Shown here: one piece after another, positions 5,206-47,791 of the stretch
Position numbering within the stretch: position 1 is the stretch's first letter
How the letters are laid out: every line of letters starts with the position of its first letter
The notes under the pieces: generated by a model
Database searches by the model: none
Told to the model about the DNA's origin: nothing
What the model saw: the letters and a program-made list of their open reading frames with translations, nothing else
From: Cellulomonas sp. PhB150
Lineage (GTDB): Bacteria > Actinomycetota > Actinomycetes > Actinomycetales > Cellulomonadaceae
Assembly (NCBI RefSeq): GCF_003755175.1
Contig: NZ_RKHX01000001.1
Location: 1,426,001 to 1,490,000 of the forward strand
Direction of reading: 5' to 3'
Length of the DNA stretch: 64,000 bases
Made by a program: the position numbers and the translations under genes

Positions 5206-6596
<1,391 letters not shown>

Positions 6597-6600
<4 letters not shown>

Positions 6601-7703: not shown

Positions 7704-7795
7704 GGGTTCCACGCTAAGGCGCGCTCCCGGCGCGCGCGTCGGCCATCGGTCCTTCGTCCCAGGATCCGGGTGCGTGTTCGCGAGACGCTGAACCC

Positions 7796-8620
7796 GTGCT
7801 GACCATCACCGAGACCGTCGACGCCCAGGCCGAGGCGGCACACCACAAGGTCGACCTGCTGCGGACCCCGGGCGTCTTCCTGGTGCGCACGGCCCTCGCG
7901 GGCGCGTACATCGGCATCGGCGTCGTCATCATGGCGACCGCCGGTGGACCGCTCGCCGCCGTCGGCTCGGGGTTCACGCCGCTGGTCCAGGGGCTCGTGT
8001 TCGGGGTCGCGCTGACGATCGTCGTCGTCGCCGGAGGCGAGCTGGCGACCTCCGCGATGATGATCCTCACGCAGGGCGCCGTCCGCGGCGTCGTCGGCTG
8101 GGGCCGCGCCGCGGTGACGCTGCTCGCGGTGCTCGCCGGGAACCTGGTCGGCGCCGTGGTGTTCGCGGTGCTCGTGCACGCCTCCGGCGTCCTCGCACCC
8201 AGCACGCCCGGAGGGGCGATGATCGCGACGATGGTCGAGCACAAGGCGGCCGAGTCGACGGGACAGCTCGTCGTGCGCGGCATCCTGTGCAACCTGCTCG
8301 TCTGCCTGGCCGTCTGGTGCGCCGCCCGGCTGCGCAGCGAGGGCGCGCGCATCGCGGTCATCTTCGCGTGCGTCATGGTCTTCATCACCTCGGGCTTCGA
8401 GCACGTGGTCGCCAACATGACGACGTTCTCGCTCGGGCTGCTCGGCGGTCTGCCGGGTGCCAGCATCGGCGAGCTCGCCCGGAACATCGCGGCGGTCGGC
8501 CTCGGCAACACGATCGGCGGAGCGGTGCTCGTCGGCCTCGCGTACGCGTACGGCAGCCGACCCGCCTCGTCCGACACGCCCGCACCGGAGCGCGAGGCGG
8601 CGGCCACCGCAATACGGTGA
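7796..8620 (+). CDS. Formate/nitrite transporter (FNT) family channel
   Basis: A 274-residue integral membrane protein with six hydrophobic helices characteristic of FocA/NirC channels, which move formate, nitrite, lactate or hydrosulfide across the membrane as pentamers. Recognisable segments are RTALAGAYIGIGVVIM at the first helix, GGELATSAMMIL in the second, GNLVGAV in the third and GFEHVVANMTTFSLG in the fifth, where the central pore histidine of the family is expected (the H of FEHVVANM). The GTG start at 7796 is divergent from the flavoprotein. The substrate cannot be told from sequence. Confidence 0.9.
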   Translation: MLTITETVDAQAEAAHHKVDLLRTPGVFLVRTALAGAYIGIGVVIMATAGGPLAAVGSGFTPLVQGLVFGVALTIVVVAGGELATSAMMILTQGAVRGVVGWGRAAVTLLAVLAGNLVGAVVFAVLVHASGVLAPSTPGGAMIATMVEHKAAESTGQLVVRGILCNLLVCLAVWCAARLRSEGARIAVIFACVMVFITSGFEHVVANMTTFSLGLLGGLPGASIGELARNIAAVGLGNTIGGAVLVGLAYAYGSRPASSDTPAPEREAAATAIR

Positions 8621-8670
8621 CCGGGAACGGCGGCGCGCCTGCGTCGCCCGCGGCCACCTCTGGAGCACGG

Positions 8671-9579
8671 ATGAGCACCTCCGACCCCGATCGACCGACC
8701 GAAGCCCAGCCCGCCGTCAGCGGCGAGCCGCCGGCCGAGACCGCCGCGCAGCCCGCAGCCGAGCCTGTCGCCGAGTCCGCAGCCGAGCCTGCCGCCGAAC
8801 CCGCGGCCGAGCCTGCCGTCGAACCTGCGGCCGAGCCCGCTGTCGACACCGGCCGCCACGCCGTCGTCCGCCCCGCACCCACGCCCCCGCCAGCGGACGA
8901 GCCGCCGACCACGACCTTCGCGCGCGTCAGCTCCCGCACCCCGGTCGAGCCGGTCGCGCCGACGACCGGCCCTGCCACGGCCGTCGTCCCGCCGCCCGCC
9001 GAGCCCGCGACCGGCACCAAGGAGCAGCCCGCGGTCGCCGAGCCCGCGTCGACGTCCACCCCGCAGCCCGCGACCGACGAGGAGCTGTTCCCCGACCCGA
9101 ACGCCCCCCGCTCGACCTCGGTCGGCACCCACGTCGTCGGCGCGATCGTCGGGCTCCTGCTCGGTCCGGTCGCCGCGGGCACGCTGCTCGTCGGTCAGGC
9201 GCGCATCCTCGAGGCTCAGGCCAGCGGCTGGACGGCGACGGTCGACACGATGGGCATCGTGCTCGTCGGCATCGGCCTGCTGCTGCTCGGCTGGGTCGTG
9301 CTGCTCGGCACCTGGACCCCCGCCGTCCCGATCACCGCGGGCCTCGTCCTGTCCGTGCTCGGCGGCGTCTCGCTCGTCGCGCCCGGCGTCGCCCGCGACC
9401 TGACGTTGCAGTACATCGACTCCTCCGGGTGGCACCTGACGATCACGCAGGTGCTCGTCTCCGGCTCGTCGGGAACGCTGCTGACGGCCGGGTTCCTGGT
9501 CCTGCTGTCCGGCTTCGTCGCGGCCGCCGCGCGGCGCCGCGGCGTGCGGCTCGGGGAGTTCCGCGAGCGGCACCGCTGA
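8671..9579 (+). CDS. Membrane protein with Ala/Pro/Glu-rich repetitive N-terminal domain
   Basis: A 302-residue protein not assigned to a family. Residues 1-145 are low-complexity, with tandem AEP(A/V) units such as AAEPAAEPAAEPAVEP encoded by a short imperfect DNA repeat at about 8756-8850; this part should be disordered and cytoplasmic. Residues 150-290 form about four transmembrane helices (for example AIVGLLLGPVAAGTLLVG and TMGIVLVGIGLLLLGWVVLLG), ending in an RRRGVR basic tail. It lies between the FNT channel and acsA on the same strand. No function is proposed. Confidence 0.8.
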   Translation: MSTSDPDRPTEAQPAVSGEPPAETAAQPAAEPVAESAAEPAAEPAAEPAVEPAAEPAVDTGRHAVVRPAPTPPPADEPPTTTFARVSSRTPVEPVAPTTGPATAVVPPPAEPATGTKEQPAVAEPASTSTPQPATDEELFPDPNAPRSTSVGTHVVGAIVGLLLGPVAAGTLLVGQARILEAQASGWTATVDTMGIVLVGIGLLLLGWVVLLGTWTPAVPITAGLVLSVLGGVSLVAPGVARDLTLQYIDSSGWHLTITQVLVSGSSGTLLTAGFLVLLSGFVAAAARRRGVRLGEFRERHR

Positions 9580-28185: not shown

Positions 28186-28968
28186 TCAGCGTGCCCAGGT
28201 GAGGCGCTGGCGTGCGACGGTCGCCAGAGCGGCCACGCGAGCGGGCTCGAGCGTCGTCGGCATGGCCCGGAAGACGGCGGGGACGACGTGCCGCGGGACG
28301 ACGAGGATCGGCGCCAGCGGGTCCTGCCGGCCGAGCACCTCGAGCTCGCCCTGGACGACCACGATGCTGCGCACGGTGATCGACGCGCAGCCGGCCGCGA
28401 CGAGGAGCGCGTGGGTGCGCTGGGCCTCCAGCCGCGCGTCGCGCAGGTAGCGCACGGACTGCCCGTCGACCTCGAGGACGCGACCGTCGAGCCGGACGCG
28501 GTGGCCGGTGAGCCTGTGCTCGGCGATGGTGAAGATGCCGCCCGGCCCGAGCAGCAGGTGCGCGAGGAGAGAGCCCTGACGGCCCAGCGGCACGTCGTGC
28601 ACGACCTGCCAGCCCTCGGCGGCCAGACGTTCGAGGCGCGCGCGCAGCGGCGAGCCGCGTTCGGCACGGGCGCGGTCCACGTCGACGACGTCGCGGTCGT
28701 TGCCGAGCCACGCCTCGAGGGCCGCCTGGTCGGCGGAGCCGAGGTCGTCGCCCGGTGTCGCGGGGACGGGCAGGACGAGCTCGGCGACGTCCGCGCGCAG
28801 GTACTCCTGGGCGGCACGGCGGAGCCGGTCCTCGAGGATCGGGTCGTCGACCACGACCTCGCCCGACTGCAGGTCGACCGAGCCGACCGGGGCGCCGGTC
28901 TCCTGGGTCACGAACAGGCGGTCAGCGCCGTAGCGCCTCCACCGTCGGACCGTCAGGAGCTGTTCCAC
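28186..28968 (-). CDS. NERD-domain-like protein with altered nuclease residues
   Basis: A 260-residue cytoplasmic protein. Residues 107-200 resemble the nuclease-related (NERD) domain: GWQVVHDVPLGRQGSLLAHLLLGPGGIFTI matches the typical pattern in which IDH and ExK carry metal-binding and catalytic residues. Here the aspartate before His137 is Ala136 and the ExK position is Glu150-His-Arg152, so activity is doubtful. No helicase or kinase domain is attached. The GTG start at 28968 is the most distal one. No partner is evident; the next gene upstream is msrB. Confidence 0.65.
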   Translation of the reverse strand: MEQLLTVRRWRRYGADRLFVTQETGAPVGSVDLQSGEVVVDDPILEDRLRRAAQEYLRADVAELVLPVPATPGDDLGSADQAALEAWLGNDRDVVDVDRARAERGSPLRARLERLAAEGWQVVHDVPLGRQGSLLAHLLLGPGGIFTIAEHRLTGHRVRLDGRVLEVDGQSVRYLRDARLEAQRTHALLVAAGCASITVRSIVVVQGELEVLGRQDPLAPILVVPRHVVPAVFRAMPTTLEPARVAALATVARQRLTWAR

Positions 28969-29057
28969 ACGAGCATTATCGGCAGGAACAGCTCCCGACT
29001 ACAGCGATGTCCAGCACGTGTCGACCAGATGGCCGAACCCGTTCGGGTGGGTCCGGG

Positions 29058-29459
29058 TCAGGCGGTCGGCTCGAACGTCAGGCTCACCGAGTTCATGCAG
29101 AACCGGTCACCCGTCGGGGTCTGCGGGGCGTCCTCGAAGACGTGCCCGAGGTGCGAGCCGCACCGCGCGCAGCGGACCTCCGTGCGCACCATGCCGTGGG
29201 TGCGGTCCTCGATGAGCTCGACCGCGTCTCCGGCCAGCGGCGTGTAGAAGCTGGGCCAGCCGCAGTGCGAGTCGAACTTCGCGTCCGACTGGAACAGCTC
29301 CGCGCTGCACGCCCGGCACCGGTACACGCCGGTGCGCTTCTCGTCGAGCAGCTCCCCGGTCCACGCCCGCTCGGTGGCTGCCTGCCGCAGCACCGCGAAC
29401 TCCTGGGGGTTCAGCTCGAGCGCCCACTCCTGGTCGGTCTTGGTCACGTCGTACGCCAC
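29058..29459 (-). CDS. msrB: Peptide methionine (R)-S-oxide reductase
   Basis: A 133-residue repair enzyme reducing the R-epimer of methionine sulfoxide in proteins. Zinc-binding CxxC pairs are CRAC and CARC; the substrate region is HCGWPSFYTPL, and the catalytic Cys is in RFCMNSVSLTF. It is the usual length for a single-domain MsrB. The GTG start at 29459 has AAGGAGG five bases upstream, which decides it. Regeneration by thioredoxin or mycoredoxin would be expected. Confidence 0.96.
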   Translation of the reverse strand: MAYDVTKTDQEWALELNPQEFAVLRQAATERAWTGELLDEKRTGVYRCRACSAELFQSDAKFDSHCGWPSFYTPLAGDAVELIEDRTHGMVRTEVRCARCGSHLGHVFEDAPQTPTGDRFCMNSVSLTFEPTA

Positions 29460-29609
29460 GTCGGCCTCCTTCGTCGTCCTGCTCTCAGCGAGGGCTCGGT
29501 CGTGCCGTTCCCTCGACCAGCCCAACACCGTGCCACGCTCGGACGTTCCCCGCGCGCCGCCCGGTACCCTCGCCTCACGCACGCCGCCCCCGGCGTGCCG
29601 CGGAAGGTC

Positions 29610-31685
29610 ATGAGGTCCCGCGTGCGCTCCTCCTCCACCCGTCGACGGCGCTGGTCGCTGACGCGGTACTTCGCATTCGTCAGCGTGCTGGCGATGGCGG
29701 CACTCGGGTGTGCGCTCGTGTGGGTCACGTCGACGGTGATGCGGGAGCAGGCGATCAACGACGGCACCGCAGCCGCGGAGTCGGTGATGGCCTACGCAGT
29801 GGCACCGCTGCCGGCGTCCGCGTTCACCGAGGGACAGCTGACCCCCGAGCAGAACCAGGCGGTCAAGGACGCGACGGCACCGTTCGGCGACAAGGTCGTG
29901 GACCTGCGGCTGTGGAGCACGGTCGGCGTCCTGCTCTACAGCAAGGCCGGCGCCGAGACCGGGTTCCCCGACACGGACCGCAACAACGCCGTCCTCCAGA
30001 ACGGCGTGCCCGACGCGCGGGTCATCGTCGACGTGCGCGAGTCGGAGGAGGGTGACGCACCCAGCGAGCAGCGGCAGGTGCTCGACGTCTACGTCCCCGT
30101 CCTCATGTCGAACACGAGCGGCGCCGCCCCCGCGGGTGCGGTGCCCGGCTCGGGGGAGCCGATCGGGACGGCCGAGGTCATGCTCGACCACACCGCGTCG
30201 GCGGCCGCCCTGCGGTCGGCGATCGGCACGGTCGCACTCGTCGTGTCCGGCGGCCTCGTGGCGCTCTGGCTCCTGCTGTTCCGCACGGTGTTCACCACCT
30301 CGAAGCGCCTGCAGGCGACCGCGCTCGAGAACGCCCGGCTCGCGCTGCTCGACTCGCTCACCGGGCTGCCCAACCGCCGGCTGCTCACCGAGCGGATGAC
30401 CAAGACCGTCGCCGAGGCCCAGCGCGACGGCGCGCGGCTCGGCATGGTCCTGCTCGACATCGACCGGTTCAAGGACATCAACGACTCGCTCGGCCACGAC
30501 CACGGCGACGAGCTCCTCGAGCAGGTCGCGGACCGGCTGCGCAAGGCGCTGCGCGACGAGGACGTGGTCGCGCGCCTCGGCGGTGACGAGTTCGCGATCC
30601 TGCTCACCGACGTGCGCTCGGTGGCCGACGCCGAGCACCTGGCCCGTCGCGTCCGGGAGCTGTTCGGTCCCCCGTTCAAGCTCGGCGAGATGTCCCTGCA
30701 CGTGGAGACGTCGGTCGGCGTCTCCTGCCTGCCCGACCACGCCGACGACGCCTCGTCGCTCATGCGCACCGCGGACGTCGCGATGTACGCCGCCAAGCAC
30801 CACCGCACCGGCGTCGCGACGTACTCGCCCGAGGAGGACCACTCCTCCCCCGCCCGGCTCGTGCTGCTCGGCGACCTGCACCGCGCGCTCGACCCCGAGC
30901 CGGGCGTGGCGCGCGAGCTCGAGCTGCACTACCAGCCGAAGGTCGACCTCGACACCGGCCGGATCGTCGGGCTCGAGGCCCTCATGCGCTGGCGGCACCC
31001 GGAGCGTGGGCTGCTGCTGCCGACCGTGTTCATCCCGCTCGCGGAGCAGTCCGGCATCATCCACCGGCTCACCCGGTACGCGCTGACCAGCGCCGTGGAG
31101 CAGCTCGCCGCCTGGATCGCGGAAGGACGGTCGACACCCATCGCCGTGAACCTGTCCGCGCACGACGTGACCTCGGGCAAGGTCGTCGACGTCATCGAGG
31201 AGCTCCTCGCCGAGCACGACGTCCCGGCCGCGCTGCTCGAGGTCGAGATCACCGAGACGGCGCTGGTCGCGGACCCGTCGCGCGTCGTGCCCGTGCTCGA
31301 GCGGCTCGCCGCGCTGGGGGTCAAGGTCGCGATCGACGACTTCGGGATCGGGAACACCTCGATCGCCCAGCTCCGCGACCTGCCCGTGCAGGAGCTGAAG
31401 ATCGACCGCCTGTTCGTCACCGACCTCGGCGACGGCGGGCGCGAGAGCGCGCACGTCGTCGTGCAGGCCATGGTCGACCTCGCGCACTCGTTCGGGCTGC
31501 GCGTCGTCGCCGAGGGTGTCGAGGACCAGATCACGGCCGCGACGCTGCGCCGGCTCGGCGTCGACCAGGCGCAGGGCTTCCTGTACTCGCGCGCCGTCCC
31601 GCCCGACGAGGTCACCGCGCTGGCCATGCTGCCGCAGCCCCGTCGCACGACGACACGCACACCGCGGAGGCAGAAGAGCGGGTGA
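29610..31685 (+). CDS. Membrane-anchored GGDEF-EAL protein (c-di-GMP turnover)
   Basis: A 691-residue protein with two transmembrane helices (about 20-42 and 205-230) enclosing an extracytoplasmic sensor of about 160 residues, then a diguanylate cyclase domain and a phosphodiesterase domain. The active-site GGDEF is at 324-328, with an inhibitory RxxD site (RDED) five residues before it. The EAL motif is at 456-458, with later residues NLSAHD, EITET, and DDFGIGNTS (T to I change in the usual DDFGTG). Both domains therefore look competent, and the net direction cannot be predicted. It immediately precedes the TasA/SipW genes on the same strand. Confidence 0.95.
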   Translation: MRSRVRSSSTRRRRWSLTRYFAFVSVLAMAALGCALVWVTSTVMREQAINDGTAAAESVMAYAVAPLPASAFTEGQLTPEQNQAVKDATAPFGDKVVDLRLWSTVGVLLYSKAGAETGFPDTDRNNAVLQNGVPDARVIVDVRESEEGDAPSEQRQVLDVYVPVLMSNTSGAAPAGAVPGSGEPIGTAEVMLDHTASAAALRSAIGTVALVVSGGLVALWLLLFRTVFTTSKRLQATALENARLALLDSLTGLPNRRLLTERMTKTVAEAQRDGARLGMVLLDIDRFKDINDSLGHDHGDELLEQVADRLRKALRDEDVVARLGGDEFAILLTDVRSVADAEHLARRVRELFGPPFKLGEMSLHVETSVGVSCLPDHADDASSLMRTADVAMYAAKHHRTGVATYSPEEDHSSPARLVLLGDLHRALDPEPGVARELELHYQPKVDLDTGRIVGLEALMRWRHPERGLLLPTVFIPLAEQSGIIHRLTRYALTSAVEQLAAWIAEGRSTPIAVNLSAHDVTSGKVVDVIEELLAEHDVPAALLEVEITETALVADPSRVVPVLERLAALGVKVAIDDFGIGNTSIAQLRDLPVQELKIDRLFVTDLGDGGRESAHVVVQAMVDLAHSFGLRVVAEGVEDQITAATLRRLGVDQAQGFLYSRAVPPDEVTALAMLPQPRRTTTRTPRRQKSG

Positions 31686-31779
31686 ACTGAGGCAGACTCC
31701 TCAAGGTGCGCGCGATCCTGCCGATGAACGAAGTGGGGGACCTCTACCCCCACCTGGACCGGAGGAGTGCCCGCTCGTG

Positions 31780-32490
31780 ATGGACGACCTGCTGCAGGAG
31801 ATGATCAACCCGGCGCCGGCACAGCACGACCGCCCGCGCCGCCGCCGCCTCTGGACGACCGTCGTGGTCGTCGGGCTGGCAGCCGTGGGTGTGACGTCCC
31901 TGACGACGTCCGCGCTCTTCTCGGACCAGGAGAAGTCCGGCTCGACGATCACGACCGGTTCGTTGGACCTCAAGGCCGACGACAGCCTGACCTTCTCCGT
32001 GCCGTTCGACAACATGCTCCCGGGCGCGCAGGTCGTCTCCCCGGTCACCCTGAAGAACGACGGCAGCCTCGCGTTCGAGTACGCGGTCAGCGTGGACGCG
32101 ACGTCCACGTCCAGCGGCAACGCGGACCCCAGCCTCGGCAACGGCGACGACCCGGGGACCGGGGACCTGCCCGACCAGCTGCACCTCGACCTCTACTCGG
32201 TGACCAGCACCAGCGCGTGCACCCTCAACGGGGTGTCCGCGAAGACCCCGCTCGGCAGCTCGAGCGGGGCGTGGGGCATCACGGGCGAGCGGATCGTCGG
32301 TGGCGCGACCGCCGGTGCGACCGGGAACCGCACGCTGGACGCGACCGAGGACGAGGTGCTGTGCGCGCGGGTCTCCTTCGCGACCGCCGCCGGCAACGAG
32401 TACCAGAACACCGCGGCCAAGGTCACGCTGACGTTCGACGCCATGCAGCTGCCGTTCAACCCGAGCCAGCCCGACACCAGCCAGCGGTAG
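31780..32490 (+). CDS. TasA/CalY-like exported protein with SipW-type signal peptide
   Basis: A 236-residue secreted protein. RRRRLW and a hydrophobic helix (residues 25-41) end in TTSALFSDQEKS, the cleavage region typical of SipW-dependent exported proteins such as TasA, which form extracellular fibres in Bacillus biofilms. The mature part shows the family opening (GSTITTGSLDLKADDS, then VSPVTLKNDGSLAFEYAVSV) and two cysteines that could form a disulfide. The ATG at 31780 is preceded by GGAGGA at some distance; a GTG one codon earlier is equally possible. The signal peptidase gene follows after three bases. Confidence 0.82.
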   Translation: MDDLLQEMINPAPAQHDRPRRRRLWTTVVVVGLAAVGVTSLTTSALFSDQEKSGSTITTGSLDLKADDSLTFSVPFDNMLPGAQVVSPVTLKNDGSLAFEYAVSVDATSTSSGNADPSLGNGDDPGTGDLPDQLHLDLYSVTSTSACTLNGVSAKTPLGSSSGAWGITGERIVGGATAGATGNRTLDATEDEVLCARVSFATAAGNEYQNTAAKVTLTFDAMQLPFNPSQPDTSQR

Positions 32491-32493
32491 CCC

Positions 32494-33195
32494 ATGCCCC
32501 GGGCGGACGCACACCCGCTCGCCGTGGAGGTCGAACGCCGACAGCCGCGGCCGGTGCTGGCGACCGCTCCGAAGCCCGCGAAGCCACGCAAGCGCCGGCG
32601 GCTGCTCTCCGTCGCGCTGTGGGCGGTCATCGTCTCGTGCGCGACCGCCTATCTCGCGTCCCTGGCCGTCCCGCTCTGGTACCAGCTGCACGACCAGCGG
32701 CTGCTGATCGTGACCTCGGGGTCGATGGCGCCCTACTTCGACGCGGGCGACGCGGTCGTGATGCAGTCCGTGGAGAACCCGTCGCAGCTCAAGCCCGGCC
32801 TCGTCGTCTCGTTCTGGCCGCCGAACTCCGAGCAGCTCGTGACGCACCGGATCGTCGCGCTCGTCAACCTCGTCGGCTCGCAGAGCACCGGCGGCGACGG
32901 GGCGGGGACGAAGTCGCCCCACATCATCACCAAGGGTGACGCCAACGAGGAGAACGACCCGGACGCGACCCCCATCACCCGCGTGCGCGGCATCGTCCTG
33001 TCGACCCACCCCGGCTGGGGCTGGGTGATGCAGTGGGCGGCCTCGCCGGTCGGTCGCGCGGTCATGCTCGTCCCGCCGCTGCTCGCGCTCGCTACGCTCG
33101 AGCTGCTCGCGGTGGCCGACGGTCGCCGACGGGTGAAGCCGAAGCAACGCTCGAGCGCAGAGGAGAGGCACGTCGATGCCGTTCTCCGCGGGTGA
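32494..33195 (+). CDS. sipW: Signal peptidase I of the SipW (archaeal/ER) type
   Basis: A 233-residue membrane protease with one transmembrane helix near residues 37-60 and another at about 190-215. The nucleophile is Ser77 in VTSGSMAPYFDAGD. A histidine (His118 in VTHRIV) replaces the general-base lysine of ordinary bacterial SPase I, which is the hallmark of SipW. The GDANEENDP segment is the conserved domain E. Sitting between the TasA-like gene and a second candidate substrate, it is expected to be dedicated to them. Its last 20 bases overlap the next start. Confidence 0.92.
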   Translation: MPRADAHPLAVEVERRQPRPVLATAPKPAKPRKRRRLLSVALWAVIVSCATAYLASLAVPLWYQLHDQRLLIVTSGSMAPYFDAGDAVVMQSVENPSQLKPGLVVSFWPPNSEQLVTHRIVALVNLVGSQSTGGDGAGTKSPHIITKGDANEENDPDATPITRVRGIVLSTHPGWGWVMQWAASPVGRAVMLVPPLLALATLELLAVADGRRRVKPKQRSSAEERHVDAVLRG

Positions 33196-33460
33196 GACCG
33201 ACGAGGGTCGACGCCTGATCGGCGCCGACCGTGCGACCTGGGTGCGCCTACTCGTCGCGCTCGGCCTCGCCGTCGCCGCGGCCGCGTTCCCGCACGTCGG
33301 CTGGACGTCGGCGGAGTTCACGGACTCGCACAGCTCGACCGGCGTCGTGCAGACAGCTCCTGACTTCGACCCCGGGGCGCCCCCGGCCGTCGACGACGCG
33401 CCGACGGCACCGACCGACGAGCCGTCCGCGCCCGAGGATCCCCCGGGCACGGACGGCTGA
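33176..33460 (+). CDS. Miniature SipW-type substrate candidate (94 residues)
   Basis: A 94-residue protein beginning inside the end of sipW with AGGAGAGG about eight bases before the ATG. It has one hydrophobic helix (residues 22-39) and then WTSAEFTDSHSSTG, which parallels TTSALFSDQEKSGS at the cleavage region of the TasA-like protein 1.4 kb upstream. After this comes only a short, Pro/Asp-rich disordered tail. It thus looks like a substrate reduced to its signal region plus a tail. It could be a true small exported peptide or a decayed paralogue. Confidence 0.75.
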   Translation: MPFSAGETDEGRRLIGADRATWVRLLVALGLAVAAAAFPHVGWTSAEFTDSHSSTGVVQTAPDFDPGAPPAVDDAPTAPTDEPSAPEDPPGTDG

Positions 33461-34993: not shown

Positions 34994-36808
34994 TCAGACG
35001 CCCGGGAGGGTGAAGCTGAACGTGGTGCCCTCGCCCACGCGGCTCGCGATCGCGAGCTCGCCGCCGTGCGCCTCGACGATGGCCTTCGCGATGGACAGCC
35101 CGAGGCCGATGCCCGGGATGGCCCGCTGGGTGGCGGTGGTCGCGCGGAAGAAGCGGGTGGCGAGGCGGTCGAGCTCGTCGGGCGGGATGCCGATCCCGGT
35201 GTCCGTGACCGAGACGACGGCGCCGCCGTCGGGGGACGCGGAGACGCGCACGTCGATCCGGCCGTCACGCGGCGTGAACTTCACCGCGTTCGACACGAGG
35301 TTGGCCACGACCTGCTCGAGCCGCATGGCGTCGCCCGGCACGTGCACCGGCTCCGCCTCGAGGTGCAGCGTCACACCGGCACCCTCGGCGCCCGGCGCGG
35401 CCTCGGCGAGGGTGGCCCTCGCGACGTCGGCGAGGTCGACGTCCTGGTGGGCGATCGTGAAGCGGCCCGCGTCGAGCTGGGCCGTCAGGAGCAGGTCGCT
35501 GACGAGGCGCAGCTGGCGGCGCGCGTTGCGCTCGACGACGAGCAGGAACTCCCGCTGCTCGTCGGTGAGCGGGTCGGGGCCGTCCAGGATGAGGTCGACG
35601 TAGCTGAGCACCGACGACAGCGGGGTGCGCAGCTCGTGGCTGACCAGGGAGACGAACTGGTCCTTGAGGCGCGCGGCCTCGCGCTCGGTGGTCACGTCTG
35701 CAGCCACCACGACGTAGCCGATCGTGGAGCCGTGGCCGTCGATGCGGCGGGTGACGGCGAGCTGGAGCGTGCCACCGCTGTCGTCGTGGCGGCGGAAGGT
35801 CCAGTCGCGCACGAGCACGCCCGCCGTCAGGGTGGGCGCTGCGACCGCGGCGAACAGGGAGTCCGCGTCGGCCTCGGCGGCGGCCACTGCGTCGACGTCG
35901 AACACCGCGCGGTAGCGCGCCTCGAGCTCGCCACGGTCGAAGAAGCTGACGAGGTTCCTGCGGCCGATGACCTCGTCGCCCGTGTACCCGAACATGCGCT
36001 CGGCGCCCGGGTTGAAGACCTCGACGACCCCGTCGGGGTCGGTGGCGACGATGGCCTGCTCGGTGACGGCGTCCATCACCGAGCCCAGGTGGGCGCGCGC
36101 GGCCTCCGTCTCACGGACCAGGCTGGCCAGCGCCTCCGCGTCCTCGGTGAGCTGGTCGTTCAGCCGCAGCTGATGGGCCTGGAGCTCCGCGAGCGCGGCG
36201 TTGCGGGCCCGCAGCCGGGACGTCGCCTCGTGCACGATGATGCCGACGACCCCCGCCACGACGGCCACGAACAGGCTGCGCACGATCAGCGCGACCGTGA
36301 CCTCCGCGTCGGCGTCGAGGATCACCGGGACCTCGACGACCGCGGCCACGCCGACCGTCCCGACGACGACGCCGGCCCGGCCCGGGCGGCCCGCGAGCAT
36401 GACCGCCGGCAGGAACAGGAGTGAGCCGAACGGCGACGCGACGCCGCCGGTGCCGGTGCGCAGCAGCGCGATCGCGAGCAGCTGGAGGACGGGAAGCCAG
36501 ATCTGCGCGGACTCGCGCCAGCGGTGCCACGGCAGCACCCACGCGAGCACGATGACGAGCGCCGCGATGGCGGAACCCAGCCACAGCTTCGACGCATCGA
36601 CGAGGATCGACGGGACCAGCGTGAGCGCGACCAGGCACAGCGCGTACACGAGCACGAACGGCAGCTGGCGCTCGAAGACGCCGGCTTCCGGGCCGATCAC
36701 CTGGCCGAGGACGCGCAGCCACCGCGAGCCGCGCGAGCGCAGGTCGTCGTCGGTCTCGACGAGCGGGGGGGACTGCGCGGGGACCTGCGCGGGGACCCGG
36801 ACGGTCAC
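34994..36808 (-). CDS. PAS-domain sensor histidine kinase, multi-pass membrane
   Basis: A 604-residue kinase ending the overlapping operon. Residues 48-192 form about five or six transmembrane helices, followed by a coiled coil (195-245), a PAS domain (245-375, with VFNPGAERMFGYTGDEVIGR), the H box SLVSHELRTPLSS (phosphorylatable His391), the N box NLVSNAVKF and G boxes TDTGIGIPP and GIGLGLSIAK. The GTG start at 36808 overlaps the stop of the 52-residue gene (GTGA). It lacks its own adjacent DNA-binding regulator; the only response regulator nearby is fused to the PIG-L enzyme at the head of the operon, so that is its presumed partner. Confidence 0.93.
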   Translation of the reverse strand: MTVRVPAQVPAQSPPLVETDDDLRSRGSRWLRVLGQVIGPEAGVFERQLPFVLVYALCLVALTLVPSILVDASKLWLGSAIAALVIVLAWVLPWHRWRESAQIWLPVLQLLAIALLRTGTGGVASPFGSLLFLPAVMLAGRPGRAGVVVGTVGVAAVVEVPVILDADAEVTVALIVRSLFVAVVAGVVGIIVHEATSRLRARNAALAELQAHQLRLNDQLTEDAEALASLVRETEAARAHLGSVMDAVTEQAIVATDPDGVVEVFNPGAERMFGYTGDEVIGRRNLVSFFDRGELEARYRAVFDVDAVAAAEADADSLFAAVAAPTLTAGVLVRDWTFRRHDDSGGTLQLAVTRRIDGHGSTIGYVVVAADVTTEREAARLKDQFVSLVSHELRTPLSSVLSYVDLILDGPDPLTDEQREFLLVVERNARRQLRLVSDLLLTAQLDAGRFTIAHQDVDLADVARATLAEAAPGAEGAGVTLHLEAEPVHVPGDAMRLEQVVANLVSNAVKFTPRDGRIDVRVSASPDGGAVVSVTDTGIGIPPDELDRLATRFFRATTATQRAIPGIGLGLSIAKAIVEAHGGELAIASRVGEGTTFSFTLPGV

Positions 36809-36963
36809 GCGACCATCGCCCGCACGACCAGGGCGACCCCGGTGATCGCCGCGGCGAGCAGCCCGAGCACGATCAGCCTGCGCTCGCCGCGCTGGTCGGC
36901 GCGGATCTCCCGGCGCATCGCGGCGGGGGACCAGGGCTCGCGGGTCTCGTCGTCGGCCACCAT
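36805..36963 (-). CDS. 52-residue single-pass membrane protein
   Basis: A tiny gene between the GT2 and histidine kinase genes. Its ATG at 36963 overlaps the GT2 stop (TGATG) and its stop overlaps the kinase start (GTGA), strong evidence that it is translated. The sequence is a charged N-terminus (ETREPWSPAAMRREIRADQRGERR) then one helix (LIVLGLLAAAITGVALVVRAMVA). No known family was recognised. It may be an accessory subunit of the glycosyltransferase or of the sensor kinase. Confidence 0.75.
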   Translation of the reverse strand: MVADDETREPWSPAAMRREIRADQRGERRLIVLGLLAAAITGVALVVRAMVA

Positions 36964-38456
36964 CACCCCACCACCCTGCCAGTCTTCTCGGTCTTGTCCC
37001 AGGCCGTGCTCGCGCCGCGCCACTGCTTGGCGTAGGCGTCGAGGGTGATCGCGCACAGCACCGGTCCGAAGCCGACGACGTACAGCAGCACGCGCGACGG
37101 CCACTTGCCCCCGGGCAGCGCCTCGACCCACCGGACCAGCCAGGCGCTGAGCATGGCGATCACGGTCCACGCGTAGAAGACGAGCGTGAGGACCTCGACG
37201 CCCGTGGCGGACATCTCCATGCCCAGCAGGTCCGGGACCCGCTCCTCCCACAGCCCGGGGACCCACGCGGCGAGCATCACGACGATCGCGCCGATGCCGG
37301 GGAACAGCAGTCCTTGGACCCACGACCGGCGGGCCGTCTCCCGGTCGAGCAGCAGCGTCATGCTCGTGATGAAGACGTAGGCGACCACGGCCACCCACCA
37401 CATGCCCTGGAACGTGGTCCGCGCGACGTCGTGGTCGACGAAGTACAGCCCGACGAGGCCGATCGCTGCGGCCGTCATCGCGACGGGCAGCAGGTAGATC
37501 GAGAACCAGATGGCGCCGAAGGTGAGCGACGAGAGCCGGTGCCCGGCGCCGCGGGACGAGAACGGGCGGCGGAACCAGACCTTGGTGAAGCGCCGCGTGA
37601 TCTGCACGTTGCCGCGGGCCCAGCGCACCCGCTGCTTCCACAGTGCGACCACGGAGTCGGGCTCCTCCGCGAGCACGACGGCCGCCGGCTCGAACACGAC
37701 CGTGCGGCCGTCGAGCTGGGTCAGGAACGTGGTGAACGTATCCTCGGCGAGCGTCGTGGTGTCGATCCGCCCGCCGACCGCCTCGAGGTTGGCGCGTGCG
37801 TGCAGCTGGGCACCGCCCGCGAGGCAGGCCATCGCGCCCATGACGTTCTGGGCCCGCCGGGCCGCTGCCTGCGCGGTGACGTACTCGTACCCGATGAACT
37901 TCGAGACCGTGCCCGGCTTGCCGGAGCCCTCGCGGATGAAGGCCGTGACGGCACCCACCTGCGGGTCGGCCAGGTGGCGGGTCATCTTGCGCAACGAGTC
38001 GGGGCGGTAGATGACGTCGGCGTCCATGATGAGCAGCGCCTCCATCCAGTCGTCGGCCAGCGCCCGCTCGATGCCGTGGTTGAGGGTGTGCGCCTTGCCC
38101 TGGCCGCCCTGCGCGCGGCGCAGGTGCACGATGCGGCCGGGGTGCTCGGCGGCCTTGGCCAGCACGACGTCGGGGGTGTCGTCGGTGCTCGCGTCGTCGA
38201 CGACGTAGACGCGCAGCCGGTCCGGCGGGTACTCGAGCCCCATGAGCCGCTCGAGGGACGCCCCGAGCACCGCGCCCTCGTTCCAGGCCGGCACCACCAC
38301 GACGACGCGGGGCAGGTACGGGGCGGCCGCACCGAGGTGGTTCTTCACCGCGTGCACGGGGACGAGCAGGTACTGGACCAGCCCGGCGATGACCGGGATG
38401 ATCCCTGCGGCCACGGCCATCAGGAGGACCACGACGAGCACGTCGTGCCAGGTCAT
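36963..38456 (-). CDS. Processive-type GT2 glycosyltransferase, membrane-embedded
   Basis: A 497-residue enzyme resembling poly-N-acetylglucosamine, hyaluronan or cellulose synthases. An N-terminal helix (5-30) precedes the GT-A domain with VVVVPAWNEG, the UDP-binding VVDDAST (87-88), DAD (145-147), the catalytic-base ED (238-239) and QRVRW (275-279), all intact. At least four helices follow in the C-terminal half and would form a translocation channel. No PilZ domain is attached, so direct c-di-GMP control is not evident. The start at 38456 overlaps the PHP gene stop (ATGA). In this operon it is the likely producer or extender of the glycan on which the deacetylase acts. Confidence 0.93.
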   Translation of the reverse strand: MTWHDVLVVVLLMAVAAGIIPVIAGLVQYLLVPVHAVKNHLGAAAPYLPRVVVVVPAWNEGAVLGASLERLMGLEYPPDRLRVYVVDDASTDDTPDVVLAKAAEHPGRIVHLRRAQGGQGKAHTLNHGIERALADDWMEALLIMDADVIYRPDSLRKMTRHLADPQVGAVTAFIREGSGKPGTVSKFIGYEYVTAQAAARRAQNVMGAMACLAGGAQLHARANLEAVGGRIDTTTLAEDTFTTFLTQLDGRTVVFEPAAVVLAEEPDSVVALWKQRVRWARGNVQITRRFTKVWFRRPFSSRGAGHRLSSLTFGAIWFSIYLLPVAMTAAAIGLVGLYFVDHDVARTTFQGMWWVAVVAYVFITSMTLLLDRETARRSWVQGLLFPGIGAIVVMLAAWVPGLWEERVPDLLGMEMSATGVEVLTLVFYAWTVIAMLSAWLVRWVEALPGGKWPSRVLLYVVGFGPVLCAITLDAYAKQWRGASTAWDKTEKTGRVVG

Positions 38457-39178
38457 GAGCGCCCGACCGACCTCAGCCACGGGTAGCGGCCCACGTCGGG
38501 CTCGTGGTGCGCGTCGGACGCGGCGACGAGCTCGACGCCTGCCGACGCCCATCGGTCGCGCACGCGCGGACCGGGGCAGCGCCACTTCTCGTTGACCTCG
38601 ACCGTCGTGCCGGTCTCGACCGCGGCCGCGGCGAACGCGTCGAGCACCTCGTCGCTCACGTCGTCCTCCGTGAGGCCGATCTTCGGCAGCAGGGAGAACG
38701 GGTGCGCGACCTGCGCGCGAGCCACCGACCGCATGGCCCGGACGGTCGCCAGGACGAGCATCTCGACGGCGTCGGCCGGGGCGAGGCCCGCGGCGATCCG
38801 CTCGGCGGTCACGCGCGGGCTCCACGGGCCGTCAGGACCGGGGAACTGGTGGTCCGCGAGCAGCACGCGGTCCACGCCCTCGGTCGTCCCGACGGCCGCG
38901 AGGACGTCGGGCGGCGCGTCGATCGCGCCGGACGCGTCGAGGATCTTCGCCTCGACGCCGGTCAGCACGGTGAGGCCGTCGTGCGCCGGCAGCGCCCGGA
39001 CCACGGCGAGGAAGTCGGGCACGTACGTGGTGGTCGTGCGGACGTGGTCGACCATCCGGACCGTGGCCAGCCCCGCGCGGACCGCCGCGTCGAGGTTCTC
39101 CTGCGGAGAGCTGACGGCGTCGTCCGAGAACGTCGAGTGCACGTGGTGGTCGCCGTCGAGCACCGGTCCCCCGCTCAT
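38453..39178 (-). CDS. PHP-domain phosphoesterase
   Basis: A 241-residue metal-dependent phosphoesterase of the PHP superfamily (histidinol-phosphatase/polymerase-X fold). Metal ligands are visible in order: DHHVHSTFSDD (HxH at 12-14), MVDHV, a glutamate in TGVEAKI, ADHQF, AHPFS and ASDAHH at the end. The substrate is unknown; in this operon a phosphorylated sugar or lipid-linked intermediate is plausible. The ATG at 39178 overlaps the ATP-grasp stop by four bases. Confidence 0.9.
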   Translation of the reverse strand: MSGGPVLDGDHHVHSTFSDDAVSSPQENLDAAVRAGLATVRMVDHVRTTTTYVPDFLAVVRALPAHDGLTVLTGVEAKILDASGAIDAPPDVLAAVGTTEGVDRVLLADHQFPGPDGPWSPRVTAERIAAGLAPADAVEMLVLATVRAMRSVARAQVAHPFSLLPKIGLTEDDVSDEVLDAFAAAAVETGTTVEVNEKWRCPGPRVRDRWASAGVELVAASDAHHEPDVGRYPWLRSVGRS

Positions 39179-40140
39179 CGCGGTGGCAGGACCTGGTCGA
39201 CCGGCAGGAAGACGTCCTCGAGGTAGCGCACGTTGGCGATCTCGACGAAGTCCATGGTCGTCGGGACGTGGCGGGAGAGCACGGCGTCGAGCGTGATCGA
39301 CGGCATGTCGACCCCGGCCGCGATGGTCAGCGGCATGGCGCCCGGGAACCGCGGGTTGACCTCGAGCAGCGCGGGGACGCCGTCCTTGTCGCGCTTGAGC
39401 TGCACGTTCGCGACGGTCGTGAGCCCGATGGCCTTGGCGACCGCGGTCGCCGTCGCCACGAGCTCGTCGTCGTGCACGGTCACCCCGGCCACGGCGACGC
39501 CCGAGTCGACGCGCAGCCGCGCGCGCGGCACCGCCGCGATGACGTGCCCGTCGAGCCCGGCCAGCACGTCGACCGAGAACTCGTCGCCCGGCAGGTGCTC
39601 CTGCACGAGCAGGTCCTCCTCGGCGTGCACGGCGTCGAGCTCGGCCTGCGACTGCACGAGGCGCACACCGCGCGAGCCGGCGCCGCGGCGCGGCTTGACG
39701 ATCACGGGGAACTCCCAGCCGGACACGGCCTGCGGCGTACCGAGCAGCTCGGTGCGCGGCACCCGGCACGTCCGCTCGGTCGCGCGCGCGAGCGCGAGCT
39801 TGTCGAGGCAGGTCTCGAGCGTGCGCAGCGACGGCGAGGCGAGCAGCGTGCCGCCCTCGTGCAGCCGGTCGCGCTCCGCCGCCAGCCGCGGCAGCTCGAC
39901 GTCGACGGTGGGGAACAGCACGTCGATGCGGTCGTCGCGGCACATCGCCAGGACGACGTCGACGAAGTCGTCGGCCAGCCCGGCGGGCACCAGGCGGCGG
40001 TGGTCGCCGTCGACGAGGTAGAGGCCGCTGGCCCAGCGGTCCATGTCCGCGGCCACCACCTCGACGTCGCCGCGGCGCAGCAGCGAGCGGATGACCGCGA
40101 CGCCCGCCGGTCCGCCGGCTCCGGTCACGAGAACTCTCAT
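39175..40140 (-). CDS. ATP-grasp ligase
   Basis: A 321-residue protein: a Rossmann-like N-terminal domain (VLVTGAGGPAGVAVIRSL) followed by an ATP-grasp domain. The nucleotide loop is VIVKPRRGAGSRGVRL (Lys149), the purine hinge is near VQEHLPGDEFSVDVL, and the metal ligands lie in LLEVNPRFPG. It resembles the carbamoyl-phosphate-synthase-large-chain-like ATP-grasp proteins that form an amide or peptide-like bond via an acyl phosphate. Next to a deacetylase that would expose an amine, joining an acid to that amine is a plausible role (inference). The ATG at 40140 overlaps the upstream stop (ATGA). Confidence 0.92.
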   Translation of the reverse strand: MRVLVTGAGGPAGVAVIRSLLRRGDVEVVAADMDRWASGLYLVDGDHRRLVPAGLADDFVDVVLAMCRDDRIDVLFPTVDVELPRLAAERDRLHEGGTLLASPSLRTLETCLDKLALARATERTCRVPRTELLGTPQAVSGWEFPVIVKPRRGAGSRGVRLVQSQAELDAVHAEEDLLVQEHLPGDEFSVDVLAGLDGHVIAAVPRARLRVDSGVAVAGVTVHDDELVATATAVAKAIGLTTVANVQLKRDKDGVPALLEVNPRFPGAMPLTIAAGVDMPSITLDAVLSRHVPTTMDFVEIANVRYLEDVFLPVDQVLPPR

Positions 40141-41216
40141 CGGTGGCCTCCGTGCTGGTCCTCGGCACGCTCGGGTGCTGCGGCCCGGAGGCCGGCCCCA
40201 CCCGAGCGCGTGATCATGGCGGCGGCGCGGATCATCTCGAGCGGCTCGACCCACCCGCCGGTGCCGAACCTCCCCCAGTACCGGGCCGTGCTGCGCACGA
40301 GGTCCGGGTCCATGTAGTCGCGGTGCTGCTGCGAGGTGAACGCGGCCAGCATCTCGAGCTTCTTGTCGACGAACCCGTCGATGGGCACGAAGCGCGTGGG
40401 CCGGTAGTCGATCGTGGCCGACGGGCTCTGGAACGAGCCCACGTAGGGGATCTTGCGCGCGGCGACCTGCACGGCCTCGTGCACCGCGCGGTGGTCCTGG
40501 TGCCGGTCGTGCGACGAGTGCGTGTAGACGATCGTCGGGTCGACCAGACCGATCGTCTCCTCGATGGCCGTGATCAGGCCGGCCGCCGGGTCGAGGCGGG
40601 TGTCGGGGAAGTCGTGCAGGAACAGGCGGGCCCCGATGACTCCCGCCGCGGCGAGCGCCTCGTGGCGCCGCTCGTCGGCCGCGCCCCCGATCGCGCCGCC
40701 CGAGAGCGTGAGGATCACGACGGTGTCTCCGTTGGCCTGGTGCGAGGCGAGCGTGCCGCCGATGCCGATCTCGACGTCGTCCGGGTGCGCGCCCACGGCG
40801 AGGACGACCTCGCCGTGGCCCGAGGCCGCGCGCCGCTGGCGGCCCTGCAGGCCGAGCGTGGACACGCGGTCGACGAGCACCGCGGCGGGGACGGGCTTGA
40901 CGAGGAACTCGTCGGCGTCGCGGCGCAGCGCCTCGACGGCGTAGTCGACGCTCGCGAAGGCGGTCGTCACGACGACGGGGACGCCGGGCGCCCGCGAGCG
41001 CAGCTCGACGAGCAGGTCGAGGCCGGACATGCCGGGCATCTGGATGTCGGTGACGACGGCGTCGAAGGACTCGGCGGCGACGGCCGCCAGGGCGGACATC
41101 GCCTCGTGCACGACGGAGACGGACATGCCCCCGCGGCGCTCGAGCACCGTGCGCACGAACTGCGCGGTGTCGACGTCGTCCTCGACCACCAGGACCTTGA
41201 GCGGTTCCTCCGTCAC
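40137..41216 (-). CDS. Response-regulator receiver domain fused to a PIG-L/LmbE deacetylase
   Basis: A 359-residue two-domain protein at the head of the operon. Residues 1-120 are a complete receiver: acidic pocket VVEDD, phospho-acceptor Asp57 in VVTDIQMPG, the Thr switch VVTTAF and Lys107 in FLVKP. Residues 135-345 are a zinc-dependent PIG-L deacetylase with AHPDDVEIGIGGT (144-147) and THSSHDRHQDH (His233-His242), as in N-acetylglucosaminyl deacetylases. No DNA-binding domain exists, so phosphorylation probably controls the enzyme directly. GTG at 41216 lies nine bases after GGAAGG; ATG at 41225 sits on that site and is less likely. Its stop overlaps the ATP-grasp start. Confidence 0.93.
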   Translation of the reverse strand: MTEEPLKVLVVEDDVDTAQFVRTVLERRGGMSVSVVHEAMSALAAVAAESFDAVVTDIQMPGMSGLDLLVELRSRAPGVPVVVTTAFASVDYAVEALRRDADEFLVKPVPAAVLVDRVSTLGLQGRQRRAASGHGEVVLAVGAHPDDVEIGIGGTLASHQANGDTVVILTLSGGAIGGAADERRHEALAAAGVIGARLFLHDFPDTRLDPAAGLITAIEETIGLVDPTIVYTHSSHDRHQDHRAVHEAVQVAARKIPYVGSFQSPSATIDYRPTRFVPIDGFVDKKLEMLAAFTSQQHRDYMDPDLVRSTARYWGRFGTGGWVEPLEMIRAAAMITRSGGAGLRAAAPERAEDQHGGHR

Positions 41217-41374
41217 GTCCACCATCCTTCCGGCCCCCACGCTAACGGGATCGGCTGGGCTCCGCTCACAGGCGGTGGGGTGATGGCGCCCAGGTCAGGG
41301 GGTGAGGATCACGGTGATCCACCCCACAGTCCTCGTCGTGGAATACGCGAGCCACCTCCCCGGTTGAGCGCATC

Positions 41375-41396
41375 AGTACATGCAAACGCATGAACT
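41375..41396. promoter_or_regulatory. 22-bp dyad upstream of the LLM oxidoreductase (candidate operator)
   Basis: AGTACATGC-AAAC-GCATGAACT pairs at eight of nine positions around a four-base centre. It ends 27 bases before the start codon. Its form suits a MarR or TetR-type repressor; no such gene is adjacent. Confidence 0.5.
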
Positions 41397-41423
41397 TTCG
41401 AGACTGGACCTGTGAGGCGCGAG

Positions 41424-45530: not shown

Positions 45531-45580
45531 GGCTCCTCGCGCCACATCCCACCCTGTCAATGACGACCCCTGGGGGAAGC

Positions 45581-47791
45581 ATGGCTCCCGAACTCCGTCC
45601 TGGCTCGGCCGCGTCTCCACGCGGCAGCCACCCGCTCGCCGACGCGCGCCAGAGCCGCCCCGCCGCGCGCGCAGCGGTCGCCGCGCTCGCGGTCCTCGCG
45701 GTGCTGCTCTCGCTCGCCGCCGTCCGGGCCGACGAGGCCCACGCCCTCGCACCGGGGGTGGTCGTCCTGTCGCAGGGCAAGCCGACGACGGCCTCGTCGT
45801 CCGAGTCCGCCGCGACGCCCGCGAGCGCGGCGACCGACGGCGACACCGGCACGCGCTGGTCGAGCGCCTTCTCCGACAACCAGTGGATCCAGGTGGACCT
45901 CGGCGCGACGAAGACGTTCGTCGGGTTCGACCTCACGTGGGAGTCCGCCTACGCCTCGAAGTACACGATCGCGACGTCGACGGACGGCACCACGTGGACC
46001 ACCGTCGTCAACGGCACGGCGACCTCGGCCGCCAAGCAGTCGCTCACCGCGAGCGGCAGCGCCCGCTACGTGCGCCTGACGGGCACGCAGCGCGCGACCG
46101 GCTACGGCACCTCGCTGTTCGAGCTCCAGGTGCTGGGAACCACGGACACCTCCGCGGCCACGCTGCTGTCGAAGGGGCGGCCGACGACGGCCTCGTCGAG
46201 CGAGTCGGCCGCGACCCCCGCGTCCTCGGCGACCGACGGCGACCTCGGCACGCGCTGGTCGAGCGCGTTCTCGGTCCCCCAGTGGATCCAGGTGGACCTC
46301 GGGTCCTCGCGGGCGCTGACGCGCGTCGACCTCACGTGGGAGTCCGCCTACGCCACCGCGTTCACGATCCAGTCCTCGCAGGACGGCACCACGTGGACGA
46401 CGCAGGCCACGCAGACGGCGGCCACCGGCGGCAAGCAGTCGATCGCGCTCGGCGGCACGGGCCGCTACGTCCGGCTGAACGCGACCGCGAAGGCCACCGG
46501 CTACGGCATCTCGCTGTGGGAGCTCGAGGTCTTCGGCAGCGGCGACGGCAGCACGGCCACCCCGACGACGACACCGACACCCACCACCACGCCCACCCAG
46601 AACCCCGGCGGCGCGGTACTGCTCAGCTACAAGAAGCCCGGCACCGCGTCCTCCAGCCAGGACGACGGCACCTGCTACCAGTGCACGCCGGACAAGGCAC
46701 TCGACGCCGACGCCGCCTCGCGCTGGGCCAGCGCCAACCCCGCCGGCTGGACCGACGCGGGCTGGCTCCAGGTGGACCTCGGCGCGACCGCCCACGTCTC
46801 TCGCGTCGTGCTGCAGTGGGACCCGGCGTACGCGACCGGCTACCAGATCCAGGTCTCGCCCAACGGCACGACGTGGACGACGATCTACTCGACGACCACG
46901 GGCAAGGGGCTCAAGGAGACGCTCGACGTCTCGGGCGACGGCCGCTACGTGCGGCTGAACCTCACCAAGCGCAGCGGCCCGTACGGGTACTCGCTGTACG
47001 GGTTCGACGTGTACGGCACGGGCGGCAACCCGGTCCAGCCGCCCACCGTCAACCTTCCGGCGCCGAACTTCACCCGCCTCGCGTGGAGCGACGAGTTCAA
47101 CGGTGCCGCCGGCTCGGGCCCGGACGCGTCGAAGTGGACGGTCGATGCCGGAACCGGGCAGAACGGTGAGCAGCAGTACTACACGCCCACCGGCAACCTG
47201 AACATGGACGGCCAGGGGCACCTGGTGATCGAGGCCCGCAAGCAGACGGCGGGCGGGCGCGACTACACGTCGGGCCGGATGAACACGTCCAACAAGTTCA
47301 TGTTCACCTACGGCCGGGTCGAGGCGCGGGTCAAGGTGCCGACGGGCCAGGGCTACTGGCCGGCGTTCTGGATGATGGGCGCCGACTTCCTCACCGGCCG
47401 GCCGTGGCCGTACAACGGCGAGGTCGACATCATGGAGGTCCTCGGCAAGGACACCACCACGTCCTACTCGACGCTGCACGCCCCGGCATACAACGGCGCG
47501 GGCGGCTACGGCGGCTCCTACAAGCTGCCCGACGGCGCTCCGCTGTCGAACGACTTCCACACCTGGGCCGCCGAGTGGGACGCGAACGGCATCCGGTACT
47601 ACCTGGACAACCGCCTGGTGTTCACCGCCGACAAGGCGACGGTCGAGTCGACGCGGGGGCCGTGGATCTACGACCACGACTTCTACGTGATCCTCAACCT
47701 CGCCGTCGGCGGGGACTGGCCCGGCCCGGTCGACGCGAGCACGCCGTTCCCGGCGAAGATGCTGGTCGACTACGTGCGGGTCTACCGCTGA
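45581..47791 (+). CDS. Secreted GH16 endo-beta-glucanase (laminarinase type) with three discoidin-like domains
   Basis: A 736-residue extracellular enzyme. A signal peptide occupies about residues 1-55. Three F5/8-type C (CBM32-like) domains follow at about 50-185, 188-325 and 345-485, the first two nearly identical; a PTTTPTP linker separates the second and third. The GH16 domain spans about 495-736 and has the catalytic ExDxxE in GEVDIMEVLG (Glu614, Asp616, Glu619) plus YWPAFWMMG and NLAVGGDWPG typical of beta-1,3(4)-glucanases. The ATG at 45581 was chosen over one seven codons earlier because of GGGGGAAG upstream. Expression is probably repressed by the LacI protein encoded next. Confidence 0.94.
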   Translation: MAPELRPGSAASPRGSHPLADARQSRPAARAAVAALAVLAVLLSLAAVRADEAHALAPGVVVLSQGKPTTASSSESAATPASAATDGDTGTRWSSAFSDNQWIQVDLGATKTFVGFDLTWESAYASKYTIATSTDGTTWTTVVNGTATSAAKQSLTASGSARYVRLTGTQRATGYGTSLFELQVLGTTDTSAATLLSKGRPTTASSSESAATPASSATDGDLGTRWSSAFSVPQWIQVDLGSSRALTRVDLTWESAYATAFTIQSSQDGTTWTTQATQTAATGGKQSIALGGTGRYVRLNATAKATGYGISLWELEVFGSGDGSTATPTTTPTPTTTPTQNPGGAVLLSYKKPGTASSSQDDGTCYQCTPDKALDADAASRWASANPAGWTDAGWLQVDLGATAHVSRVVLQWDPAYATGYQIQVSPNGTTWTTIYSTTTGKGLKETLDVSGDGRYVRLNLTKRSGPYGYSLYGFDVYGTGGNPVQPPTVNLPAPNFTRLAWSDEFNGAAGSGPDASKWTVDAGTGQNGEQQYYTPTGNLNMDGQGHLVIEARKQTAGGRDYTSGRMNTSNKFMFTYGRVEARVKVPTGQGYWPAFWMMGADFLTGRPWPYNGEVDIMEVLGKDTTTSYSTLHAPAYNGAGGYGGSYKLPDGAPLSNDFHTWAAEWDANGIRYYLDNRLVFTADKATVESTRGPWIYDHDFYVILNLAVGGDWPGPVDASTPFPAKMLVDYVRVYR

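Follow-up and report, generated by a model that had tools for sequence, protein, structure and literature searches.

Pathways of the bacillithiol and mycothiol type employ a glycosyltransferase, a PIG-L deacetylase and a ligase, in the same order of chemistry as proposed here, and the pga/ica/bfp systems for poly-N-acetylglucosamine (PgaABCD, IcaADBC) combine a GT2 synthase carrying the D, D and QxxRW motifs with a small membrane helper, a de-N-acetylase and a role in biofilm. The Citrobacter paper PMC6414854 presents PgaD as the small membrane helper of the GT2 synthase. Both arrangements partly resemble a six-gene operon of Cellulomonas sp. PhB150, located at positions 34994-41216 of the 64,000-nucleotide stretch of DNA that was analysed (NZ_RKHX01000001.1, positions 1,426,001 to 1,490,000; the window). 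Six minus-strand open reading frames (ORFs) overlap at all five junctions and encode, in order, a fusion of a response-regulator receiver with a PIG-L de-N-acetylase (RR-PIG-L), an ATP-grasp ligase, a PHP phosphoesterase, a GT2 glycosyltransferase, a membrane protein of 52 amino acids (aa) and a PAS histidine kinase. In a judgement that could fall either way, we read the operon as a self-contained glycan machine, under the control of the kinase, whose surface product is chemically modified. Its features are as follows, with transmembrane abbreviated as TM.

40137..41216, minus strand: receiver (response regulator)-PIG-L de-N-acetylase fusion, 359 aa, GTG start; Response_reg at aa 8-118, PIG-L at aa 139-252
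41046..41048, minus strand: codon of the predicted phospho-acceptor Asp57 of the receiver (sequence; invariant in an 86-row alignment)
40776..40790, minus strand: PIG-L metal/catalytic motif AHPDD, aa 143-147 (sequence, alignment)
39175..40140, minus strand: ATP-grasp ligase, CPS-like / ATPgrasp_Ter, 321 aa (domain scans; nearest solved chain 2pn1)
38453..39178, minus strand: PHP-family metal-dependent phosphoesterase, 241 aa (domain scan, predicted fold, conserved residues)
36963..38456, minus strand: membrane GT2 glycosyltransferase, synthase type, 497 aa (domain scan, TM prediction, motifs, fold)
37620..37634, minus strand: GT2 motif QRVRW (sequence, alignment)
36805..36963, minus strand: 52-aa single-helix membrane microprotein (family member 3' of GT2 in 87/88 operons)
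34994..36808, minus strand: membrane PAS histidine kinase, 604 aa, GTG start, 5 predicted TM segments (domain scan, TM prediction, conserved residues)
35636..35638, minus strand: codon of the predicted phospho-donor His391 of the kinase (sequence, alignment)

An earlier reading made from the letters alone (the sequence-only reading) had described an operon with an overlap at every junction and intact catalytic motifs, and both statements were borne out. Each junction could be read directly, namely ATGA at 40137-40140 (RR-PIG-L/ATP-grasp), at 39175-39178 (ATP-grasp/PHP) and at 38453-38456 (PHP/GT2), TGATG with a 1-base overlap at 36963 (GT2/52-aa protein) and GTGA at 36805-36808 (52-aa protein/kinase), while the residues for phosphorylation and catalysis hardly vary among relatives. 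The overlaps probably reflect translational coupling, but the fixed ratio proposed in the sequence-only reading does not follow from them.

Several differences set the operon apart from the known systems. Unlike the secreted PgaB, its PIG-L domain has no signal or TM segment and is fused to a receiver, and the ATP-grasp, PHP and kinase genes are additional to the pga/ica set. Compared with the bacillithiol and mycothiol pathways, it has a membrane synthase-type GT2, an ATP-grasp enzyme in place of the known ligases, and a receiver and kinase. In plasmid clusters of E. coli and Salmonella, PIG-L, GT2 and an acyl-group enzyme likewise lie in one run (L168, 5959-9165; L169, 5992-9168), but these clusters carry a hexapeptide acetyltransferase instead of ATP-grasp and a YaiO-family outer-membrane barrel, and lack PHP, receiver and kinase; near matches occur on E. 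coli plasmids in only 8/5426 genomes, and no functional paper on the cluster was found in the literature search. The pig-L gene of C. difficile (CD23150) adjoins a response-regulator gene and its deletion reduces biofilm (PMC12613277), but there the regulator is a separate transcription factor, a TM segment is present and no common gene set has been shown. Response regulators with enzymatic output, such as receiver-GGDEF proteins, also fuse a receiver to a catalytic domain with a kinase gene nearby, whereas the output here is a PIG-L de-N-acetylase, a type of which no description was found in the open-licence papers searched. Consistent with the sequence-only reading, which did not recognise the combination, no described pathway with the same gene set was found among these papers, and the consulted parts of the Lipocone (PMC12419801), Actinoplanes (PMC13390465) and Citrobacter (PMC6414854) papers describe other gene sets. 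All the protein families are already known, and their wiring was not found described; this novelty is provisional because the open-licence collection is incomplete.

For comparison with other genomes, the PHP alignment was scanned against 84,980 species, giving 189 relatives, of which the best 80 were retained as loci. These best 80 of 189 are all actinobacterial (Cellulomonas, Sanguibacter, Janibacter, Microbacteriaceae, Blastococcus, Nocardioides and Nakamurella), the closest PHP relative found being that of C. rhizosphaerae with 91% identity. Neighbouring the PHP gene, ATP-grasp is found in 79/80, PIG-L in 77/80 and GT2 in 75/80 loci; the loci without PIG-L are cut there by a contig end, save for L099, which has PHP alone. 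Across these loci the four enzyme genes always follow one another in the same order, and the receiver-deacetylase fusion is full-length wherever the contig covers the gene, again with L099 as the sole exception. In a larger locus set, which includes some genomes twice, overlaps recur at the PIG-L/ATP-grasp (83/98), ATP-grasp/PHP (93/100) and PHP/GT2 (89/96) junctions. The occurrence is patchy, with the PHP marker in 20/396 genomes sampled from the order and 3/396 from the phylum, and in the phylum sample the marker and a full-length RR-PIG-L are confined to the identical three genomes. The distances of the genes are roughly congruent (r 0.82-0.91, with no correction for shared ancestry). Apart from SipW in two lineages, no gene outside the core was found to be common to most lineages in the neighbourhood comparison, so the unit recurs by itself in differing surroundings. 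No PHP relatives were found on plasmids or viral contigs, and no GT2 relatives on plasmids at 1e-60.

As judged from this comparison, the six genes form one real functional module, in agreement with the co-occurrence and order that the sequence-only reading had proposed for checking. Genes commonly found apart, which that reading had named as its refutation, are not seen among the closest 80 loci, but exceptions exist: GT2 is relocated in three genomes, receiver and kinase are missing in four operons, and PHP is absent in looser relatives. Frame breaks, due to sequencing errors or decay, were seen in GT2 and kinase of Leucobacter coleopterorum (L092, 10725-14456) and in ATP-grasp of Microbacterium sp. 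Se63.02b (L104, 9007-9992).

The receiver half (Response_reg, 5e-27) carries D57, T85 and K107, without variation across the 86 rows of the fusion alignment, and the kinase (HisKA, 1e-16; HATPase_c, 1e-32; PAS) carries H391, invariant in an 83-row alignment, as well as a conserved N503 and glycine boxes. Of 84 receiver-fused operons, 80 have a kinase gene no more than 8 kb away (with no correction for shared ancestry); three of the four without one are cut by contig ends, leaving L147 as a real exception. Conversely, the kinase is absent from all four operons with intact flanks whose receiver is missing or degenerate (L024, L026, L142 and L144). This joint presence and absence, together with the invariant phospho-residues, supports the proposal that the kinase is wired to the receiver-deacetylase; in the glycan-machine reading, the membrane sensor kinase of the window would pass phosphate to the receiver half of RR-PIG-L. 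The term phospho-relay used in the sequence-only reading is not supported for the window, where only the kinase and one receiver are found and which therefore holds a plain two-component pair; many relatives have one or two free receivers between microprotein and kinase, and a receiver-Hpt protein is encoded near the Blastococcus operon, so that a phospho-relay is possible in relatives with extra receivers. The claim that the set lacks a DNA-binding regulator is true of the window, whereas the operon of Blastococcus has an OmpR-type regulator at its flank.

Phosphorylation of the receiver may then directly alter the activity or placement of the deacetylase with no DNA-binding step. It is possible, though on the whole unlikely, that the receiver is a device for localisation or assembly, in which phosphorylation brings the deacetylase to the membrane and leaves its catalytic rate unset, an explanation compatible with either kind of product discussed below. 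In the looser relatives L027, L028 and L171 a membrane-anchored PIG-L stands in for the receiver fusion, and the N-terminal part may therefore serve mainly to place PIG-L at the membrane. Nothing speaks directly against this explanation; the invariant phospho-residues and the kinase linkage show that phosphorylation matters, but not how.

GT2 (family match, 1e-29) is predicted to have one N-terminal and five C-terminal TM helices, and its D88, D147, E238/D239 and QRxRW (275-279) are invariant in the alignment, which gives it the D, D, ED, QxxRW and membrane integration expected of a processive synthase. The QxxRW synthase signature had been overlooked in the sequence-only reading. The predicted fold (model pLDDT, the predicted local distance difference test, 78) is nearest to PcManGT and then to hyaluronan, cellulose and chitin synthases (E about 1e-12). 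Membership of the pga/ica systems was rejected, given a score of 126.8 bits against the PgaC_IcaA equivalog model with a cut-off of 422.3. In the glycan-machine reading, this synthase-like GT2 would both polymerise and export the glycan, which is probably destined for the cell matrix. C. algicola, C. fimi HM71 and Leifsonia shinshuensis, whose operons lack GT2, each retain a lone GT2 of the same family elsewhere (E <1e-230; L164, 1515-2999; L165, 9090-10574; L166, 8309-9829). Because both Cellulomonas share the new site, there were probably two independent relocations, and the retention of the gene after leaving the operon suggests that the GT2 step is needed by the pathway.

The 52-aa protein has no match among Pfam and NCBIfam models. 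A single-helix protein of 43-92 residues lies directly 3' of GT2 in 87/88 operons, overlapping it in 86/88 and starting at a 4-base overlap in 83 of 88, with the family consensus EIEADRRRERRLL preceding the TM helix. Since the microprotein is also found in operons lacking kinase or receiver, it goes with GT2, although L101 retains it with GT2 gone. By these comparisons the 52-aa protein is a member of an unnamed single-helix family and a conserved partner of GT2, for which it may act as a helper in a PgaD-like role. The partnership had been overlooked in the sequence-only reading.

Alternatively, and rather doubtfully in our estimate, GT2 may transfer a single sugar or a small number of sugars to a carrier of lipid or wall type, the product being a modified glycolipid or wall substituent with no secreted polymer. 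This would agree with the mannosyltransferase PcManGT as the nearest solved and predicted-fold match, with matches to the HpnI and MftF models (under their cut-offs) and with the failure to find an export gene common to the lineages, but the invariant QRxRW, the synthase motifs, the six TM helices and the conserved microprotein, a putative helper, fit a processive synthase.

The PIG-L half (PF02585, 2e-24, 86.7 bits against a cut-off of 28.2) has conserved AHPDD and HxDH motifs, with H144, D146, D147, D241 and H242 invariant in the fusion alignment; a single-sequence phmmer search of solved chains gave no match. Under the glycan-machine reading, it would strip the acetyl group from an N-acetylamino sugar, most likely as a sugar nucleotide or within the growing chain on the inner side of the membrane. 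The ATP-grasp enzyme (ATPgrasp_Ter, 6e-34; PF15632, 117 bits), whose nucleotide/metal residues K149, E260, N262 and R264 are conserved, may couple an acid onto the freed amine; these ATP-grasp families are reportedly traced to the amidoligase and Ter-operon papers. PHP (domain match, 4e-7) has H12, H14, D19, H45, E76, H110, H159, D222 and H224 at least 97% conserved, D19 occupying what we take, from comparison with YcdX, to be the position of a usual His metal ligand. Its predicted fold (pLDDT 93.5) is nearest to YcdX and histidinol-phosphate phosphatase, making a phosphatase step likely, in which phosphate would be taken off an intermediate. Looser actinobacterial relatives have PIG-L, GT2 and ATP-grasp together without PHP, one lineage adding a UDP-N-acetylglucosamine (UDP-GlcNAc) 2-epimerase in one run (L120, 5106-9856), and in others PIG-L bears N-terminal membrane helices; the epimerase partner and the membrane helices point to UDP-N-acetylhexosamine (UDP-HexNAc) chemistry at the membrane. 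The combined logic of a deacetylase, an amide-forming ATP-grasp enzyme and GT2 is supported, while the substrate, the acid and the glycan are inferred.

A soluble small molecule, such as an N-acyl amino-sugar conjugate resembling bacillithiol or mycothiol, for which GT2 merely supplies a precursor, appears quite improbable. BshB1 is the nearest NCBIfam model of the PIG-L half, PIG-L and ATP-grasp have no predicted TM segment, and L020 dispenses with GT2 and PHP. Against this stand the membrane synthase-type GT2 and microprotein, which are nearly always linked, and the retention of GT2 elsewhere in three genomes. Identity with the bacillithiol deacetylase BshB1 itself was rejected, its score lying under the cut-off (81.6 against 182.5 bits). 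Short gene overlaps are frequent in compact high-GC genomes, but a chance neighbourhood of unrelated genes has next to no probability and was rejected, as the set, order and overlaps recur in relatives across several orders in differing genomic settings.

Beyond the kinase, 28755-33460 (plus strand) encodes a GGDEF-EAL protein, a TasA-like protein, a SipW-type signal peptidase and a short SipW-substrate-like ORF, and the first three are present in most Cellulomonas loci. Blastococcus has a SipW-type gene on the other side, upstream of the operon. With 2-4 SipW-type peptidases per genome, the estimated chance of finding one within 10 kb is roughly 1-2% for each lineage; two lineages show it. 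The SipW/TasA neighbours, overlooked in the sequence-only reading, are circumstantial and suggest a matrix role for the operon. In Blastococcus, the upstream ORF beside SipW looks TasA-like by appearance. The intergenic region at 41217-41411, which separates the operon from a divergent gene for an LLM-type monooxygenase, contains a motif around TTCATGCGTTTGCATGTACTG that is nearly unchanged in L029-L031; it resembles an operator or promoter and may belong to the divergent gene. At 45560-47791 (plus strand) a large protein is encoded that looks secreted and has discoidin-like repeats together with an apparent GH16-type glucanase domain.

Several observations weigh against a glycan machine. The solved structure closest to GT2 is a mannosyltransferase and no known polymer synthase, the confidence of the GT2 model is moderate, and PgaC, BshB1 and the other named models all score under their cut-offs. 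GT2 has been lost from two Blastococcus loci (L067 and L099), whose genomes contain only distant GT2s in other places, and the Cellulomonas locus L020 retains RR-PIG-L, ATP-grasp and kinase but lacks PHP and GT2, its genome having only a distant GT2 outside the operon. Neither an exporter nor a hydrolase or anchoring gene common to the lineages was found, the operon neighbours are clade-specific, the TasA similarity is weak (1.3e-7), and shared ancestry is uncorrected in both the receiver-kinase correlation and the distance congruence. The reduced L020 operon (5578-9457) has AHLDD in place of AHPDD in PIG-L. In Blastococcus atacamensis (L067, 10749-11081) the beginning of GT2 continues into sequence that is unrelated or resembles the microprotein, as if a large segment had been deleted, and no close GT2 was found elsewhere in that genome.

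More broadly, and tentatively, with the chances clearly below even, the operon may represent an actinobacterial family of glycan-making systems whose polymer chemistry is controlled at the level of the enzymes by a membrane kinase, via a receiver-PIG-L protein, a new type of response regulator, with amide substituents placed on a surface polysaccharide by ATP-grasp and a new microprotein partner of GT2. If this is true, the acylation of surface glycans would be adjustable by phosphorylation of an enzyme with no wait for new transcription, an enzymatic output would be added to response regulators, and a conserved microprotein missed by annotation would be named. Cellulomonas, Microbacterium, Blastococcus and their relatives would gain a defined matrix system.

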